Below are positions 15,723 to 45,827 of a stretch of DNA of 64,000 nt, piece after piece. Location: contig JAULSN010000002.1 in the NCBI GenBank assembly GCA_033439765.1, forward strand, positions 2,666,001 through 2,730,000, in the 5' to 3' direction. The translations under genes were made by a program, and so were the position numbers. Below the pieces are notes generated by a model. The model worked only from the letters and a program-made list of their open reading frames with translations, made no database searches and was not told the origin of the DNA. Origin of the DNA: Lasiosphaeria ovina. Lineage: Eukaryota; Ascomycota; Sordariomycetes; Sordariales; Lasiosphaeriaceae. The first letter of the stretch is position 1, and every line of letters starts with the position of its first letter.

Positions 15723-18045
15723 TTCTGTTGGTCATGTTTTTCTTTTTTTCTTCTTGAATCTTTTCTATTTTCGGTATCCTTGGGGTTTGGGGCTAGGGGT
15801 TGGGGGTTGGCTTTTATTTATTTTTTTGGAGGGGGATCAGCATATTGTCGCTATGATTCTTGCGACGGGGGCCGAACTTTGGCCCCTCCCCTGAGCGCGG
15901 CCGGCTCCCGAATATCTGGCTGGCTCTTTGGCTTAGCGGGTGGGAGAGCGAGAGACTTAGAGCAGCGATGTGAGGAGCACGTTAGGATGTGAACTGTGCA
16001 GTAGGGTTCTACTTGTTTTCTGGATTTGGAAGAGAGACGGGAATCAGTGGCCGCGGTAGGCTATCTCTCTGTCTCCTGCCCCATGAAGCGGATGTTTGTA
16101 CGTACGTCTCGCACTCTGGCCAAGTTTTCTTTCTCTTCTCGCTCCTTCGTTTCCTATTGTTTGTTCATAAGCTCTGGCGCTGAAGGGGGGGTGGGTTGTT
16201 GTGTTACAGGGGCATGACAGGAGGAGGGAGGGCAAGCATGCATGCATTACTTGGGGGCCTCACACACGACGGGGAGGGAAGGAGTCATTGAAGGCGGCGG
16301 GCAGAGGAGTTTTACTGGGGTCGTGGCTTTCTATTTCCTTTGTATACTCTCTCTCTCTCTCTCTCCTTCTTCCCTTCTCCTTTCTGGTTCCCTCTCTCCT
16401 TCATGTCTCTCTGGCTGGTACCCGGCTCTACGAGCACGTCGCTCGATTTCCTCCCCCCTTTTTACCGGGGGGGAAACACCATGTCCATCCGCCCGGTCAC
16501 CCGCCACAATACAATACACACTTTAGATAACGCGCCCGGTTTGCATTTCCTTCTTTACATATTTTTGTGCTTCATTTTCCCAAAGTGCCAGTGGTCAGCT
16601 ACCTCGGTTATATTTCACAGTCCAACGAAATCAAAGTTTTACAAATCCTAGACAAAATCTTTCCGTCAGCGTTTACATCAATCAGTGGCGACGGTTGTCT
16701 GTATTTAGTACGGCAGGTAGGTATCTTCCTTGCGAATAGGTTAGGTGCATATATTTGGCACTCGAAATGGGGAGAAAGGAGTGGCGGATCAAACTCTGGT
16801 CTCTATTTTGTATGTTTTTCTCTTGTCTATCTAGATGCCAGTGTAGCTACGCAAGATAAAGTAGGATGGTCAAAAGAAGCTAGAGGCAGGCAGTGCTACT
16901 GTTTCTCCTTTTCTGATTCTCCTTTACTTCCGCTGGAGGGAAATACCAACTCTGCAAAAGAAATATCTGGAGGGAGGGCCATCATGAAGGAACTTGCCAC
17001 AGATGCCAGCACATGAGCGGAAGAGAAAAAAACACTGCGAGATACCAGGTCCTCACTAAGCATGAAAGCCAAGCAAATATGCTTTCCTTCTCTTGCGAAA
17101 GTGGCACAAAACAAGCTGGACAAGCTCTCTTTCACCCAAGTTTGTGTTTATATTGCAGAATACAAGACACGGGTGTGGTTTCGTGTAGATACCTCACTGT
17201 GACTATTCCCATGAGCGGAAATGTGATCCAACACTGATCGAGCCCCTCTGCTATGTATATGTACCCAAGACATATTGTGTACGTGGAGATGCGTATAAGC
17301 CATTTTCACTTTGGTGAAAGATCTAGCTGTGGAAGTCGCTCCTTGAGTAGTGGAAAGAAAATAACATATTCAAGACACATGCGGCCTGTAGTGAGAGAGA
17401 TACCTTGATATGTGGTGCAACGTGCGGGCAGACAAGACGAGACAAGACAAGACAAGGCAGAGAGGGATATAGATGGAGATTGATAGATGGATACGAAGTC
17501 AAGAGAAGACACAGATTGCGATATATACCTACCCCCTAGCTATCGGGACTGACCACATAAACAGTCCATGCGAACAAGAGGTCTGGAAAGAAAAGCACGT
17601 TTACCTAAGTACCTTACGTACCTGACGGCTCGAAGACCACACGAGCTCGCACATACACGTACACGGACGCAAACAGACAGAGACGACGACACACGCGCAC
17701 ACATATATACTTATACAGTATGTGTATCTCCTTTTTCCATCAGAAACAGAGAATGCGGTGTTCTGGCCGCCCAATTTGGCTGGCGCGTGTCGCCATTTTC
17801 GGTGGCTTCGACACCAAGTGCACAAGTCTCTTACAAGTACCGTATAGGTACCTGCATCATAGCAGCCTTTCTAGCGCGCATCCATGGAATTGATGGATGC
17901 ATAGCCCACAACAAGGGGCCTGTACTGTAAGGAGCCTAGCCCCCCAGTTGGCTTATGCCACATATCTCCGTCACGGTCTTCCGTAAGTGGTTGGCTAAGC
18001 ACGAACTCTAAGAGAATATTTCAACATAGTTGATCACCAGGCAGT
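15723..18045. other. Intergenic, 2.3 kb
   Basis: Contains a CT repeat (near 16350-16366) and the 3' end of the Yippee transcript. No supported gene. From about 17940 the sequence grades into the transposon-derived island. Confidence 0.45.
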
Positions 18046-18267
18046 CTATTCGGACAGCAACGGCCGTCTTCCCGGACAGTACTGTTCGATAAGCTGAAAA
18101 ATGTCACTATTCCCGTCGACAACAAAGCTCTTGAGGTAACGGTTAAGAGCCTCAACAAGGGATGTAGTGCAGTGGCCAAAGTTGAGGCGCTTGTCGATGC
18201 AACACGTTGCCCACTGCTCACGCAAAGGCATCAGGCTCTCAATGTAAGCTAGTATGCCGGACAACAT
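18046..18267 (-). mobile_element. MULE-type transposase relic
   Basis: A 73-codon fragment includes YIESLMPLREQW, DKRLNFGHCTTSLVEALNRY and LKSFVVDGNSDIFQLIEQ. The pattern (H-x-TTS-x-VE-x-x-x-x-x-LK) matches the region after the catalytic core of fungal Mutator-like transposases. It has no catalytic DDE residues, no zinc finger and no start context, so it is a dead fragment. It lies about 100 bp beyond the 3' end of the HET-s homologue. Called from remembered family pattern. Confidence 0.55.
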
Positions 18268-18363: not shown

Positions 18364-19230
18364 TCAATCGAGAATGCCCCGGCCGCCGTAATTGTTTCCG
18401 ATATGAACCGCTGATGAGCCCGTCGCGTCGACCACACCTGCAGAGTTTGTCGTCTGATCCGCAACGCCCCAACCATGGCCGAGAACTTTCTCCGCATATT
18501 CGTTGCCGACCCGCACCCGCGCATCCCCCTGCGCATTAATTTTCCCTGCGCGATTCTTCACCGCGATCCCTTCGGCCTTCTGCGCAGCAGCGGCGGCGAA
18601 GACGCTGTCGACTCCGCTAGCGGCGTCTGAGATTGCCATCAGGCCTGGCTCGTCGTCAACCTCCTCGATCTCCACCTGAACCAATTGGCGACAAATTGCT
18701 TCGACAGGGCATATCTTCTCTAGATCGTCGACGAAGCCCGTGATCTGCTCGACCAGCCTGTCAAAGTTCTTCCCGTCGTACAACACGCACGCCGCCTTCT
18801 TCACGAGGCTCGTCTGCTTCTGCCTCTGGCGGACTACGCTCTCGAGATGTCTGCACAGCCGCTGGAAGACCGGCTGCATTTCTCCATCCCGAAACTGCAC
18901 CAGGTCTTCTGGCTTTGCGCCCAGTTCGTACTGCTTCGACGTCTTCTGAACCGACTGGAATAGCAGATCAATTTCCCTGAGCACCGACTGGACCTGCTGA
19001 GTTGACGCATCAGTCGGCGACGTAGTGGCGAACCGAAGATCCTCGTTGATGGCGATCGCCTCGCCCCACCGACTCAGTCGCAACTGGGCGACCTTGAGCT
19101 TAAGCTGGCACCGCTCGTAATCCCGACCGAAGTGGCGTCCCATCTGGACGTACTCGAAGCAGTCGACGCAGTTGTTGAAGAGATCTACCACGCCCAGCGC
19201 GCCTACCACGGTACCGAACATCTCCGCCAT
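18364..19230 (-). CDS. het-s: HET-s/HET-S homologue: HeLo domain plus C-terminal prion-forming domain
   Basis: 288 aa, intronless; start chosen at MAEMFGTVVGALGVVDLFNN, which matches the family N terminus (the frame is open upstream but passes through the MITE). Residues 1-about 222 form the HeLo pore-forming cell-death domain (NNCVDCFEYVQ, FGRDYERCQLKLKVAQLRLS, RQKQTSLVKKA). Residues 226-246 and 262-282 are the two pseudo-repeats of the beta-solenoid amyloid, with ladder Asn at 226 and 262 and Gly-containing turns. These numbers coincide with the Podospora protein (289 aa). In that species the protein is either a prion (HET-s) or a toxin that inserts in the plasma membrane when templated (HET-S), and it is activated by the NLR NWD2. 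Here position 33 is His and 86 is Glu. The C-terminal loop reads GGRGILD, without the aromatic pair found in Podospora. The partner-like gene lies head-to-head. The frame looks intact. Confidence 0.95.
   Translation of the reverse strand: MAEMFGTVVGALGVVDLFNNCVDCFEYVQMGRHFGRDYERCQLKLKVAQLRLSRWGEAIAINEDLRFATTSPTDASTQQVQSVLREIDLLFQSVQKTSKQYELGAKPEDLVQFRDGEMQPVFQRLCRHLESVVRQRQKQTSLVKKAACVLYDGKNFDRLVEQITGFVDDLEKICPVEAICRQLVQVEIEEVDDEPGLMAISDAASGVDSVFAAAAAQKAEGIAVKNRAGKINAQGDARVRVGNEYAEKVLGHGWGVADQTTNSAGVVDATGSSAVHIGNNYGGRGILD
18385..18555 (-). other. Prion-forming domain: amyloid repeats R1 and R2
   Basis: R1 is encoded at 18493-18555 (residues 226-246) and R2 at 18385-18447 (residues 262-282), joined by a 15-residue linker containing GHGWGVADQT. 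Both repeats have the N-x-A-G...G...V-x-x-G-N-x-Y pattern of HET-s motif amyloids. Confidence 0.93.
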
Positions 19231-19594
19231 ATTCTCAACGACGATTCGTATACTGGCCGATGATGGAACGATTCGGGTTTTTGACGCTGATTGATGATAT
19301 TGCTCGGGTACAGAAACGACACGGCAAGATGAGAGAATTGCGGCTGACAGCCTGGCCAGCCTCGTTCGTCCTCTAAGCGCCGCGGAAGGACCAAGCCTCG
19401 CTACTGTACATACAGTGGGCGGCAAAGAGTTTAAATCCAGCACTAAGTACATGTAAGCCGCTAGCCGTATACGCGGTACAAGATTTGGATTCAATTTTTT
19501 TGCCGCCCACTGTACGGCATCCCCTCCGATTGACAACTGATAAGATCCGTCTTCAACAGCCAAAACGACAATATCCATCCACGACAGCCGAACG
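19231..19594. promoter_or_regulatory. Shared divergent promoter of the HET-s homologue and NWD2-like gene
   Basis: Only 364 bp separate the two start codons, so both 5' UTRs and promoters must lie here. A 100-bp MITE fills positions 19413-19512, leaving about 180 bp on the HET-s side and about 80 bp on the NWD2 side. No TATA box is obvious. Confidence 0.7.
19411..19514. mobile_element. Tc1/mariner-type MITE (100 bp) with TA target duplications
   Basis: The element spans 19413-19512 and is flanked by TA on both sides (19411-19412 and 19513-19514). Its ends are inverted repeats starting CAGTGGGCGGCAAA on each strand. The match extends to about 27 bp (…AATCCA) with four mismatches. The CAGTG terminus and TA duplication are typical of Tc1/mariner. 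It has no coding capacity, so it would be a non-autonomous element. Both termini and the duplication are read directly from the sequence. Confidence 0.88.
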
Positions 19595-20035
19595 ATGAAC
19601 TCCGCTGGACATATCAAGGCCAGCGGCCAGGCGAAGGTACATATTGGGGATAACTACTCGATCGACGTCTCCACTGATCTGAACCGCAACCGCTGCCTTG
19701 CCGATCTTCGTCTCGCCGACCCCCGCGAAGAGAAGGCACGCATCGAGCAGACGAAAGGTGGCCGCTTCAGAGACTCATACGAGTGGATTCTTGACAATGA
19801 CGAATTCCGCCGATGGCAGCACGAGAAGCGCAGCTGTGTGCTGTGGATCAAAGGCGACGCTGGCAAAGGCAAGACCATGCTCCTCTGTGGCATCATCAAC
19901 GAGCTGTCGCAGTCTGCGCCGAACTCCAAGACGGGCAAGGAGAAAAAACGTAAAACAGGTATTATCAACAAGCTATCGCATTCACTCAAGGGAAAATCCG
20001 CCTCCTCCCGCCCAAAGGCATTTGTAGCGCCGTAA
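19595..20035 (+). CDS. Truncated NWD2-type NLR: N-terminal HET-s amyloid motif plus start of NACHT domain
   Basis: 146-aa frame with ATG. Residues 2-22 (NSAGHIKASGQAKVHIGDNY) are a HET-s amyloid motif, identical at 12 of 20 positions to R2 of the neighbouring protein. Then come RFRDSYEWILDNDEFRRW and VLWIKGDAGKGKTMLLCGII, the typical entry into a fungal NACHT domain, with Walker A GDAGKGKT at 87-94. The family is normally over 1000 aa: motif, NACHT, then WD40 or other repeats that sense a ligand; oligomerisation then templates the HeLo effector. Here the frame ends about 50 residues after Walker A, with Lys/Ser-rich sequence and no Walker B, FFCQ block or repeats. GIINELSQS (99-107) is echoed by GIINKLSHS (122-130). 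Either a stub pseudogene or a short motif-plus-P-loop protein; the sequence alone cannot say which. Confidence 0.8.
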   Translation: MNSAGHIKASGQAKVHIGDNYSIDVSTDLNRNRCLADLRLADPREEKARIEQTKGGRFRDSYEWILDNDEFRRWQHEKRSCVLWIKGDAGKGKTMLLCGIINELSQSAPNSKTGKEKKRKTGIINKLSHSLKGKSASSRPKAFVAP

Positions 20036-20401
20036 TTGACCAATAGCCCACGATCGACAAATTAGACGCCACGAGAGACGCCGCGATGGTGATGTACAGC
20101 TTCCTTGGTATGATGGAAACAGCCTCAAAACAAGCTGATAAACGAACGAGCGTGATGACGCCAGGCACTAAGTAACGGACAGAACAGCTTGAATAGCACA
20201 AGCTTCCTGACGTACCGCTGAGAGCGTCCTGTAAATCCAGAAAGCATTGACGACATTCACGAGATCAGCCCTCGTGACCCGCAGGCCCTCTTGCGTGCGC
20301 CCCAAGCTGCAAAAGAGAAGGCCAGATGTGATAATTCCGAATAGTGTTTGGCAGGAAGCGGGGGCTACATGAAGCCAAAATAGAGGTTCTGGGTCGAGCA
20401 T
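19986..20401 (-). pseudogene. Candidate membrane-protein relic, frame broken once
   Basis: On the minus strand an ATG frame from 20401 reads MLDPEPLFWLHVAPASCQTL and ADLVNVVNAFWIYRTLSA, then stops at 20168. A second frame, open from about 20201, continues as GVITLVRLSACFEAVSIIP and LYITIAASLVASNLSIVGYW. The two together give four or so hydrophobic segments, as in a small fungal integral membrane protein. No consensus intron joins the two frames in phase, so a 1-nt frameshift or a missing exon is likely. It overlaps the 3' end of the NWD2-like frame antisense. No family is recognised with confidence. Confidence 0.3.
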
Positions 20402-21607
20402 GATGGAATGGAGACGTGATGATCAGATTTCCATCCCGAGCAGGTCGAAAGTGCACTTCTTATGTGTCGGGGCCATAATATGGTCAGAGAACGTGCCGAC
20501 TCGTCCCTTGCGATAGATCAGCGATCCAGGCCGCCAACTTCCTTGAAAAGCAATGGTTATTGGATGTCTGTTCCTCAGCTCCCATAATCCTAACCTGGGA
20601 GAACTCATGTGGGTCACCGGGATATTGGACGAGCTGGGAGGGCAAACAAGGTGGCTTAATAAAGCGAAGGCCAGCTTGCCTGCCTTGTCTGCCCACCTTA
20701 TCCTACACACTTTGTCCGCCTACCTTGCGCCTTATCTGCCGCGAGTCTAGTGTACAGGGTGTGGATACTACGTAAGAACTGTTGAACTGCGTGTAGCTGG
20801 CGGAGCGGAAGCGGTAGCGAAGGCGGGAGTTAAGTGCAGAGTAGGTCGATGAGTGCAGGGTAGACTATAGGGAACTGTGCCCTTTAGTTCGGTACAACAG
20901 TGCTCTGTGTAGGGCACTAGGGAAGCAGGTTGACAGCAACAGGTCTGTAGAACTCTGCTACAGGCCTGCATATATGCACTGGCCATTTTTGTAGCGGGTC
21001 CGCTGCAGCCGCAGTAGGCGGGTGTTTTCTATAAAATTAATCTGCGATTACTCCATAACGACTACGCCAACAAACTATCTGACCATCTGACCTAGCCGCA
21101 CGCTTCGCACGCGGCGGGCTGGCGCACAAAGGAACGTCTATAATTAGAGACTATTCCGAGCCTCGTTCCGTAAAAAGGGGTACACAATAAAGTTATTGGT
21201 TAATAATGTAGGCGGCTGGTCAATTAAGGGGTAATCTAGCGTCTCCCTTCTCTTTTCCCGGATCCATATCCATCCCGGGTTGTCGTGACAAAGCGGAGTA
21301 AAACCATCATGGCCGAGACTCCCCGGACCGCCGATTCACGGCCGATTCTCGGCCCACTTACAATCACCTTTACTCCGCCGGCGCCCTGTCTCGTGCCCGT
21401 GGGACTGTGCACCACCTGCACCGAGGCATGGAACGGCCAGGAGGGCGTCAAATCCGGAGCGTGCAGCACCGTGTTCGCTATTACTTTTTCCATTTTCCAT
21501 TTTTGAGATCATAATATGATATATATAAAAAGAAAATAGTATTATACTACATACGCGACTTTTGCAATTCAAGCCGGTACGCAAAGTAAGCAAATCCCAG
21601 CCACCAC
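20402..21607. other. Intergenic with AT-rich relic
   Basis: No gene recognised. The part from about 21020 to 21240 is visibly more AT-rich than its surroundings, with fragments such as ataaaattaatctg and ggttaataatg around a GC-rich patch; it looks like degraded repeat DNA. AT-rich again at 21500-21560, just beyond the DUS1 stop. Confidence 0.4.
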
Positions 21608-23547
21608 TCACCCGCTGACGAGTTCGCTGCTGGGATATGCCGTCGTCTTGTCCAGGGCGGCGGCGAGCGTTTCCGTTTCGTTGTCGACGGCTGCTGCTTG
21701 AGCCGTCACAGGAACTGCCGTGGCAGCGCCATTCACATTCTGCACAGACACAGACGCCGCCGCCTTGACACCACCGCCATTGGTATTATTACAATTGCTA
21801 TTCCCCCTGGCCTTCTTGGGCTGGATGGCGCCCTTGGCCAGGGCCTCGCTGGGCAGCGGGCGGATGACGGGCTGGACGACCCACCAGGGCCGCTTGCAGC
21901 GGCGGACCGTGTGCAGGGAGCTTTCGCCACCGTTTTCCTCTTCTTCTCCTTTCGGGCCTTCGTGGTCCTTCTTCTTATTCCCAAACTTGAGCTGGATCTC
22001 GTCGTCCATCTCGCGCTCGATGGTGGCGCCGCCCGACCGCTCGTCCTCGAGCAGGCCCTCGGCCACCTTGCGCTCGACCATGTCGAGCACGGCCTCGAAC
22101 TTGCCCATGTCGGCGAGCCGGGCGCGCGCGAGCGCGTCGCGCACGTCCGTATGCCGCGTGACGAGGTGGCGCAGGAGGTGGAACAGGTGGCCCTGCATGC
22201 CGGCGTAGTTGGTGGTGGGCAGGTACTTTTCCGGCTTCTTCGGTGCCTGCTGCTGCTTTTGCTGCTGCTTCTGCTTCTTGGTTGGCGGTTCGTCGTCGGC
22301 GGCGCTAGGAGTGGTGAAATCGGCCGCCCGTTTCGCGCTCGCCTGCTGCTGCAGCTGCGACTCGGTCATGGGCACCAGCGCGGCTGCCGGGGGGGGCGGC
22401 GGCGGCGCTGCGAGCCAGGCGGTGTCGTCGCCGACCACGAACAGGGGTCTCCGCGCGGGCGGCTCCTGATCGCGCACGTACCGGTACATGATGTCGAGGT
22501 AGCGGCGGAAGACGGCGTCGACGCGCCAGCCGCCGTCGCGGCCGTCGCGGGGCCTCCAGTATTCGCGGCCCTCGTCGCCGGGGGCCGGGGCCGGGGCGAA
22601 GATGGCCGGGTTGCTGAGGTTGCCCTCGGCGCTCATGACGCCGTCGGCGCCCGTGGCGGCCAGGCACGCGTCGACATCCTCGGGCAGCAGGATGTTGCCG
22701 TTGGCGAACAGCACCGTGTCGGGCGGCAGGTTGTCGCGCAGGTAGCGGATCATGTCCCAGTCGGCCACGCCCGTCAGGTGGCCCTTTTGCTCGCGTAGGC
22801 GGCCGTGCACCGTCAGGATGCTGGCGCCGGCGCGCAGCACGTTCTGCGCGTACTCGAGCGTCGCCTCGCGCGTCTCGAGCATGCGGATCTTGGCCGTGAC
22901 GGGGATGGACAGCTTCTCGTGCAGCGTGTTGATCAGGCGGAAGATGAGGTCCTGGTCCTCCTGCAGGAAGGCGCCGTAGTGGCCGCGCTTGGCGATGCCC
23001 TGCGGACAGCCCAGGTTGAGGTCGACGGCGTCGCAGTAGGGTGCAACCATCTCGGCCGCCGCGAGGAGTGCGTCCGGGTCGTGCGAGGCGAACTGGACAA
23101 AGAGCGGCCGGTCGATGGCCGGGTTGCCGTCGAGGAAGGGCGTGAGCGCGGCCGCGGGGTCGAAGCCCTCGCCCGCCCAGGGCTCGCGCGTCGGCTGGAA
23201 GTGCGTGTCGCGGTACTTTTGGCCGCCCGCGAACAGGCGCGAATGGAGCATGGGCGAGTAGGCGAGGATCGAGGACCGCTGAGACTCGGGCAGGAAGGAT
23301 CGCGAGAGCATGCGCCAGGCCTAATTAGACCACGGGCGGGCGTATTAGCATTGTATGCCTCCCGACACGGACAGGGCCTTGAACATACAAATTCCGACTG
23401 GTCCACCATGGGCGCCACGATGCACTTTGGGCTGCCGATGCTCTCGTAGAAGGCGCGGCCGTGCAGCTTCTTCTTGGGCGCCGGCGCCGTCGGCGGTGCA
23501 TCGGCAGCACCCGTCGACGAGCCCGGCGTCGCGTTCACAGCCGCCAT
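21608..23547 (-). CDS. DUS1: tRNA-dihydrouridine synthase, Dus1 type
   Basis: complement(join(21608..23320,23389..23547)), 623 aa; the 68-bp intron is GTATGT...TTAG. Reaction: FMN- and NADPH-dependent reduction of uridine 16/17 in the tRNA D-loop. Motifs in order: YESIGSPKCIVAPMVDQSEF at the barrel entrance, YCDAVDLNLGCPQG with the likely catalytic Cys at about 158, PVTAKIRM, ILTVHGRLREQKG, and DTVLFANGNI with the FMN-binding ANG. The start is the ATG giving MAAVNATPG. The C-terminal half (after about residue 330) is a long, poorly conserved tail with poly-Gln/Lys and Pro/Ala runs, longer than in the yeast protein (about 420 aa) but common in filamentous fungi. Confidence 0.93.
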
Positions 23548-25230
23548 CTTCCCCAACAGAGGAAACCTCGACAGAAGTCGTCGCCCGCGGAATATCGACG
23601 GCCGATACGCTGCGAGTCTGGAAAGGAATGCCAGCGTAGTGGCGGGCCGGTGAAAGCGGGCGGGCGGGCGGGAGAGGTGGAGTGCAGCTAATTAGCTCTC
23701 CTCGTATTGGCTGAGAAGTCGTCGCTTGCCGTGGTAGTTCGTCGTCAAGTCTTTTTTTTTTGGGGGGTTCGGTGGTGGCTCAAAATCAAGATCGTCAAAT
23801 GGCAACGTCCGAAAACCCGAAAAAAGAAAAATCCTCAAAAATGCCAATTCTCGCGACGAGGCTGAGAGCTGACTGGCCACTTCCCCCCCTTTCCCACCCC
23901 CCCTCACCCCCAAAAAGGCCACATGAAATCCCTGATTGGTCTAATCGGCGCGGGATGAGGCTAATGCCCCGCAGCGGGGGTTGAGCACGCTAAAAGTCGC
24001 GGCGCATGCAAGGCTATCGGTTTGGCGTGCCGGGCCCCCACATTACCTCCAAAAGAGGAAACTAAAAAAAGGTTGTTGGAGAACAGGAACATCAGATTAA
24101 CTAGCGCACAGTGCAACAAAAGCGCCATTTCGCTCAAGTCCCGTCCGTCTCACATCTTCCGAGTCCCCGTTCGCCTCAACCTTTTGACAATTATCCGAAC
24201 CCCCGCCAACCAGCCGTTTGCAGGCAATAGGTACTCCGTATTGTTGGGAACCAGCCTGCTCCGCAGTGGATTTATCCCCTCTTATCCCCTATGCCAAGCC
24301 ATCTTCGTGGGTTCGAGAGCGGGTTGATCCCAAAACGCACGTCATTCACCAACCGGTCAAGAAGTCGCCTTCGGAATGCCGTTGCTTGGCAGCAAAAGAC
24401 GGAAACAAACCCATCTTTGCCAAGAAACATCTTGGGCACCAGCAACCGGGAAACTATAGTTGAAGCCAAGGACGCATGCCTCTTATTTCGAGACATCCAG
24501 CCCTGTATCATATTTAGTAACGCTCGAGCTGCTCGCCGGACTGACAACGAATCGACTAGATATAATGAATAGACCGTGAACCACAAACAAGACAACGATT
24601 CTAGAAAACAACAATGTAAAAAGTAAATAAAGATTAAGCCCCCTCAACCTCCCCTAAACATCGCTTGTACCCCTCATTTGGCTCGAACACTGTCGCCCAA
24701 AACTTTTGTCGCTATAAAAAAAAATACAAACCGCTCAGAGTTGTGTCTTTCGGTACCGTTGCCTCTTGTCTGGAATAAGAAAAACGTCGCCAAGTCCGGA
24801 TAAAACAGTCCATTGCTTCCAAGAACAGCGAGCTGCCGTCTCGCCGATGCTCGCCTCTCTGCACCGACCAACGTCCACGACATGGCCACTCTCTGCTCGC
24901 CAACTCCCTAATCTCTCTCCGCAATTCTGTCCCTCCCCACTTCGCCTAGCACCATGAGGTACCCCTCCAATCATCCAATTAATGGTGGCTGATGACAGGG
25001 ACGCGAGGGAGGAACCGATCTTGTGTCTCTCAATATTAAGCTGCTTTGCCAAATTCGAGACACAGGGCGGTCGAGATCGATGCGAAGAAAAAACGCCGCG
25101 ACACCGCACTATGCTGTCCCCTAAACGCCACTGAAATGTGAATCCTGGTTAAATACATGTCTGGGCCAACGGGACCCTGTATGAAACGAAACCGGCCGAG
25201 ATGTAGGTTGCACCTTGTCTTTAGTCGTCA
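23548..25230. other. Intergenic, 1.7 kb
   Basis: DUS1 promoter followed by the 3' flank of the BNI4-like gene. T and A tracts at 23752-23761 and 24716-24726. No gene recognised. Confidence 0.45.
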
Positions 25231-45755: not shown

Positions 45756-45827
45756 AGTTCCGAAGGCGATTTGAACGCCTGACCTACCGGACTGCAGCCG
45801 GTTGCTCTACCCCTGAGCTACCAGAAC
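45756..45827 (-). tRNA. tRNA-Cys (anticodon GCA)
   Basis: On the minus strand the 72-nt sequence folds as a cloverleaf without an intron. The acceptor stem GTTCTGG pairs with TCGGAAC (two G-T pairs). The A-box region reads TAGCTCAGGGGT. The anticodon stem ACCGG/CCGGT encloses CTGCAGT with anticodon GCA at 45793-45795. The T arm is AGGCG-TTCAAAT-CGCCT. The discriminator is U, the known identity base for tRNA-Cys. TTTT follows immediately, a Pol III stop. Confidence 0.96.

Follow-up and report, generated by a model that had tools for sequence, protein, structure and literature searches.

What is left of a two-component cell-death system when its receptor gene has been cut short and its effector gene stands intact beside it? 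In the intact system, as known from Podospora, a ligand bound by NWD2 clusters R0 motifs into a β-solenoid that templates the R1-R2 repeats of HET-S, and the HeLo domain of the templated protein goes on to act on the membrane. The question is raised by a window of 64,000 nucleotides (the whole stretch analysed, to which all coordinates refer) on a contig of 7,339,101 bases in the genome of Lasiosphaeria ovina (51.7 Mb, 32 contigs), a Sordariales fungus. The structure of the locus is known from one assembly of one strain. A preliminary description had seen in it a HET-s homologue and an NWD2-type gene sharing an amyloid motif, and had taken it for a locus that was, or still is, an incompatibility or defence switch. 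The families and the hedge stand, but the receptor is truncated and its remaining parts were not found, so that the receptor-driven pathway is apparently broken here. The likely reading is that of a HET-S/NWD2 two-component cell-death locus which has lost its receptor half and kept its effector.

The association of HET-s and NLR genes is as such already known, from putative pairs in other genomes (see following) and from a published survey in which 98 of 155 HeLo-related proteins have an adjacent motif-bearing NLR (PMC4518210). L. ovina has 162 NLRs, the largest set among the Sordariales genomes of a 2025 survey (PMC12258605). No paper describing its HET-s/NWD2 locus was recognised in the literature searched, outside which lie supplements and most subscription papers. 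Within this literature the words "Lasiosphaeria", "het-s", and "prion" were found together in one paper only (PMC9262711), and "Lasiosphaeria" is absent from the main text of PMC9815663.

Table 1. Features of the L. ovina locus, in window coordinates
Feature	Coordinates	Strand	Evidence
HET-s/HET-S homologue, 288 aa, single open frame, intact	18364..19230	-	profile, sequence, and structure matches
Amyloid repeat R2, residues 262-282	18385..18447	-	gapless alignment; strands predicted at 261-269 and 274-277
Amyloid repeat R1, residues 226-246	18493..18555	-	gapless alignment to HET-s 218-289; strands predicted at 225-233 and 238-241
HeLo domain, residues 6-199; D23, H33, E86; private A16D, E85R, R100Q, W148C	18634..19215	-	Pfam and homologue alignment
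Intergenic region common to effector and remnant, 364 bp	19231..19594		start codons at 19230 (-) and 19595 (+)
Miniature inverted-repeat transposon, 104 bp, 29-bp arms (86% complementary), TA at both ends	19411..19514		arms and copies
NWD2-type NLR gene remnant, 146-aa ORF	19595..20035	+	profile match and relatives
R0 amyloid motif, residues 2-22	19598..19660	+	identity to R2 (see text)
Walker A / P-loop GDAGKGKT	19853..19876	+	profile match and relatives
Break: homology to relatives fades; stop codon 20033-20035	20008..20035	+	tblastn alignments end at 20023-20029 at furthest
Possible inserted element (candidate), TIR-like arms 20030-20051 and 21208-21229 (17/22 paired)	20030..21229		arm pairing
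Dispersed repeat, ~178 bp	20792..20969	+	at least 42 other genome matches, some partial

The effector gene

The minus-strand gene codes for a member of the HET-s/HET-S family, as defined by its HeLo domain and its C-terminal pair of repeats, and it may be able to form and template amyloid. Its frame opens with a conserved ATG. The HeLo domain announced in the preliminary description matches the Pfam profile with 178 bits (E 2.8e-52, cut-off 23.2), and the C-terminal region, for which a profile search had been proposed, matches HET-s_218-289 with 78.6 bits (cut-off 32.2). In a sequence search of solved structures the protein finds HET-s/HET-S 1-227 at ~2e-83 and HET-s 218-289 at 1.6e-8. Because the alignment to the solved HET-s structures is gapless, R1 and R2 fall exactly on their positions in Podospora, as had been claimed. 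At E ≤ 0.001, the effector is the sole match to PF11558 in the L. ovina genome, which also contains 16 matches to PF14479 (HeLo), the translations of seven of these loci having been inspected.

The effector was compared with 119 other HET-s homologues (the best listed of 216, its own copy excluded, from a list of the best 120). Its identity to the 12 closest relatives is 65-71%. Among the 119, G242 is invariant, and G278, N226, and N262 are found in 116, 110, and 109 proteins, respectively. The 21-residue consensus of the HET-s repeat has N at positions 1 and 18, hydrophobic residues at 3, 6, 14, and 16, G at 10 and 17, and preferably a positive charge at 13 (PMC3321046). Both repeats of L. 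ovina fit it, with A at position 3 in each and no positive charge at position 13 of R2. The predicted structure has four strands in R1-R2 (block-mean pLDDT 61-83), within a model whose mean pLDDT is 63.4, with residues 1-35 below 50 and modest confidence for the HeLo part. A Foldseek search with this model gives first the HET-s/HET-S HeLo structures 2wvo, 2wvq, and 2wvn (E 2.5e-12 to 4.6e-11, TM 0.44-0.60), followed by weak matches to the HET-s amyloid models 2lbu and 2rnm (E 0.03).

The protein database carries the same effector under L. ovina as a model of 254 aa (P0002) that omits 34 residues (~69-102). These correspond to 18925-19026 (-), that is, 102 bp, a multiple of three. The gap is probably a wrongly called intron, since the frame is open throughout and 113 of the 119 homologues are near full length.

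The receptor remnant and the search for its missing parts

As described earlier, the two genes stand head to head, 364 bp apart, and the second protein starts with a motif in common with R2. This motif, R0, is identical to R2 at 12 of 21 residues and to R1 at 10 of 21; when the 146-aa sequence was shuffled 20,000 times, the highest score with R1 or R2 was 9. By itself R0 is below the Pfam cut-offs (19.8 bits for PF11558, 16.6 bits for PF17108), and it is called because of the shuffles, its position, and the presence of the same motif in full-length relatives. It keeps N1, the hydrophobic residues at 6, 14, and 16, G10, G17, and the positive charge at 13 of the consensus, and has A at position 3 and D instead of N at position 18. 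Its greater closeness to R2 than to R1 is shared with the HRAM1 class (PMC4518210), that is, the canonical HET-s motif, and the HRAM1 HeLo/NLR pairs of Fusarium, Colletotrichum, Monosporascus, Chaetomidium, and others have the same domains.

R0 is followed by a linker and by the P-loop that had been attributed to a NACHT domain. The P-loop is confirmed by a match to NPHP3_N (50.1 bits, E 4.6e-13), but this match covers profile positions 2-50 of 164 only, and the one to plain NACHT, with 22.4 bits, is under the cut-off of 26.7. The idea of an NWD2-type receptor fails on the remaining parts: the 146-aa ORF has the N-terminal R0, but neither a complete NACHT nor a C-terminal WD40 domain, and in the assembly the effector therefore has no adjacent cognate receptor able to oligomerise on a ligand. 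Relatives starting with R0 (e.g., P0123, P0125, P0177, and P0184) continue past the break point into an FFCQ motif, and the long ones also carry the rest of NACHT, with Walker B, and WD40-type Pfam domains.

The same contrast holds with Podospora anserina het-S/nwd2. Both loci have a HeLo effector with H33 and equally spaced R1 and R2, and a divergently transcribed NLR gene starting with R0, but the NWD2 protein of Podospora has NACHT and a WD-repeat domain, whereas the L. ovina frame stops after the P-loop. The gap between the genes is also shorter, 0.36 kb against 0.6 kb (PMC4344463). For 10 of the 119 listed HET-s homologues, a listed relative of the remnant (long NLRs being represented by the best 120 of 458) lies on a contig of equal length, as matched by eye, 4 of these putative pairs having consecutive locus tags. 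The partner NLR has 803-1350 aa in 8 of the 10 pairs, so the ancestral partner in L. ovina was probably long as well. In the other two it has 137 aa (P0132, Colletotrichum spaethianum) and 256 aa (P0133, Fusarium oxysporum), and these short R0 proteins may be true truncations or split or artefactual gene models.

If the truncation came from the assembly or from an exon structure that escapes detection, the pair might still be intact and working. The motif pair and the gene order are conserved and the frame of the remnant is open, but the searches make this reading highly improbable. The 64 kb were compared with 14 relatives of 771-1350 aa, WD40-bearing ones included, at E values up to 0.01. 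Every one of them matched the remnant alone, to 20023 at furthest, and no WD40 repeats were found in the window. Up to five of the longest ORFs were also taken from each of 11 NLR loci in the L. ovina genome. They gave nothing below E 0.027 in the region 20036-23600, and ORFs of all 11 did match the remnant, which serves as a positive control. Hence, no Walker B, remaining NACHT, or WD40 was found 3′ of the remnant in the window. An intron carrying the NLR frame beyond the stop codon was rejected, as there is no NLR-like exon downstream (the best match of a short relative in 20036-23600 has E 0.023, which is at chance level). The sequence is free of gaps up to the downstream neighbour, a Dus tRNA-dihydrouridine synthase gene at 21608-23311 (-).

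Relocation of the missing part within the genome was rejected as well. A query with the second half of NACHT has 20 genome matches, of which 13, at 39-68% identity, lie at most 1.2 kb from a P-loop half, and the remaining 7 have 36% identity or less. No strong orphan second half was thus found in the L. ovina genome, and the 3′ part of the receptor is apparently missing from the assembly and not displaced within it. At one NLR-like locus of this genome (G000:C32:996365-997867), ~0.9 kb separates the P-loop half from the second half, and the second half contains a single stop; this is perhaps another interrupted receptor.

A six-frame search of the genome with R2 and its tail (E up to 10) returned R2 itself and R0 only, and none of the other 19 genome matches of the 146-aa query starts before query residue 15. 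PF17108 (E up to 10) has 6 matches, of which two are R2 and R0, already known. The other four fall in short frames (29-148 aa), and in the sequence retrieved around them three NLR relatives find no match. These searches therefore revealed no further NLR bearing the canonical HET-s motif in the genome, though other HET-s-related motif classes could escape them.

Reduced to R0, linker, and P-loop, the NLR stub would be expected neither to sense a ligand nor to oligomerise via NACHT, and the effector, its receptor gene ending after the ATP-binding loop, seems to have lost its known trigger. One could suppose that the stub has a function of its own and, as an R0 protein free of ligand, seeds or modulates the effector. 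In Podospora, NWD2(1-30)-GFP needs no ligand to induce the prion and propagate it (PMC4344463), and P0132 and P0133 are short R0 proteins predicted on contigs matching in length those of HET-s homologues, but the latter may be gene-model artefacts, and a constitutive seed next to a toxic effector would be expected to be self-lethal. The D at motif position 18 also speaks against a working stub, as the NWD2 mutant N20A at this position lowered propagation to 1/15, while leaving induction unimpaired at 49/59 (PMC4344463). Finally, the remnant is among the most departed of 38 relatives, with 7 departures at 48 conserved positions and severity rank 2, behind a single outlier that has 31. Relaxed constraint would lead one to expect this. 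A functional stub is accordingly very unlikely. The predicted structure of its piece is unfolded and of low confidence (pLDDT 48.6, 16 sequences), a weak argument for the loss of the receptor.

Some doubt also attaches to the preferred reading of receptor loss. The truncation may reflect a local assembly error or a strain polymorphism, and the open frame and mostly kept R0 consensus may mean that the loss is recent or the stub still active.

Transposon debris and possible causes of the break

Repeated sequences are found on both sides of the remnant (Table 1). The 104-bp element lies between the start codons of the effector and of the remnant and has 14 further copies in the genome, at 89-94% over most of its length, the ends having been compared in 7 of them. 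Another dispersed repeat, at 17733-18255, lies 0.1 kb 3′ of the effector stop codon and has many partial genome copies, the best at 88% over 285 bp.

At the break itself there is a hint of an element inserted at 20030, with its left end coinciding with the end of the homology. The pairing of its arms was reached by none of 60 mononucleotide shuffles and by 5 of 500 dinucleotide shuffles, or by 1 of 500 when the left arm was confined to 20026-20056; it was also reached at 6 of 300 random places of the window, and the site at 20030 was chosen after being seen. Apart from the nested repeat and one piece at 69%, the genome yielded no second copy of this candidate. Simple insertion of a transposon at 20030 was rejected as the cause of the break: the NLR sequence does not continue beyond 21229, and an insertion by itself would therefore not account for the missing part of the receptor.

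Repeat-induced point mutation (RIP) was rejected by the dinucleotide indices. TpA/ApT is 0.48 in the remnant, 0.72 in 20036-20791, and 0.77 in the window, and the corresponding CpA-type indices are 1.41, 1.32, and 1.15. TpA/ApT is high only in the 178-bp repeat, which is too short to be read.

The wild het-s isolates of Podospora that were analysed have only a pseudogene of nwd2, scarred by a transposon, and het-S strains keep nwd2 (PMC3321046; PMC4344463). The L. ovina locus resembles the het-s haplotype in its intact effector frame, receptor pseudogene, and transposon debris. The two differ in the nature of the damage, as the Podospora gene has a repa scar of ~0.5 kb and premature stops (PMC4344463), whereas the 3′ part of the L. 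ovina receptor was not found at all, and also in residue 33 of the effector, P in Podospora het-s and H in L. ovina.

Elsewhere in the window, a tRNA gene at 45756-45827 (-) is the sole Rfam match over the gathering score.

The state of the HeLo domain and the fate of the effector

The loss of the receptor does not in itself show the present role of the effector. Under the receptor-loss reading, the effector would now be an orphan, to be activated only by amyloid of its own kind, e.g., after fusion with another strain, or else left to decay, and the HeLo protein may still act when driven by a prion or by some other trigger. In Podospora, H33P alone converts HET-S into HET-s, the reverse change requires both D23A and P33H, and replacement of E86 by K disrupts HeLo dimerisation (PMC3531502). 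The L. ovina protein retains E86 and H33. By the published rule for position 33 it would be HET-S-like (PMC3321046), and its D23, where Podospora HET-S has A, leaves the rule incomplete: the combination of D23 and H33 is that of a HET-s protein carrying P33H alone. These are also the commonest states among the homologues (D23 in 76 and H33 in 83 of the 119 listed), none of which has P33.

Four other residues are private to L. ovina. A16D lies in a stretch predicted as a hidden membrane helix, at a position with A in 100 of 119 homologues and a charge in none; E85R adjoins the dimer residue E86, and E is found there in 112; R100Q and W148C replace residues present in 115 and 117 homologues, respectively. 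All four differ from the 12 closest relatives wherever the residue is present, one relative having G16 instead of A16. The severity score of the HeLo domain is high (rank 3 of 114), and the amyloid domain has no departures at its most conserved columns, where the median of the 114 is only 1.

Such a pattern could arise if L. ovina had converged on a het-s-like state, in which the receptor is gone, HeLo pore formation has been lost without H33P, and R1-R2 still propagate, giving a prion that is harmless by itself and lethal only on meeting a HET-S-type allele. The pairing of a broken nwd2 with an altered HeLo domain is that of the Podospora het-s isolates, and the need for D23A in addition to P33H for HET-S behaviour is consistent with it, as are the severe private changes next to an amyloid domain without departures at its most conserved columns. 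Several observations point the other way. The tree gives the HeLo branch no acceleration over the amyloid domain (ratio 0.69 for a median of 0.81, 47th of 67 from the top), and its branch lengths lend no support to a general relaxation of HeLo. Three other homologues have at least 11 HeLo departures with none in the amyloid domain, a single charge within residues 6-22 also occurs in 14 of 119 homologues, and the N-terminal segment, though low in hydropathy, is no outlier (of 116, it is the 26th least hydrophobic on one scale and the 8th on another). The frequency of D23 and of H33 among the homologues also counts against it. Overall, we consider a het-s-like state rather unlikely. The stronger statement, that a het-s-like system originated a second time, independently and outside Podospora, with HeLo disarmed (candidates A16D, E85R, and W148C) and the amyloid kept as a prion triggering toxic alleles in other strains, is more doubtful still.

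It is also conceivable, if unlikely, that the whole locus is a relic whose effector is dying too and has no function. The loss of the receptor, the transposon in the intergenic region, and the severe private HeLo changes would all suit a decaying locus, but the frame is full length, the identity to the 12 closest relatives is 65-71%, the amyloid domain has kept its conserved columns, and there is neither overall acceleration nor a RIP signature. Both the relic and the het-s-like state are sub-cases of receptor loss, and not alternatives to the truncation.

The order of events is of interest, as for the Podospora het-s strains Daskalov et al. 2012 (PMC3321046) could not decide which came first, the inactivation of nwd2 or the mutation of HET-S. 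The L. ovina locus, in another family of Sordariales, would be a natural example in which the receptor is lost and the H33P step has not been taken. If its effector is toxic, the loss of the receptor came here without the loss of toxicity; if it is a harmless prion, the state of Podospora het-s arose twice.

A homologue of 272 aa in Gaeumannomyces hyphopodioides (P0029) has HeLo without the HET-s domain in its precomputed Pfam list, possibly by loss of the amyloid half.
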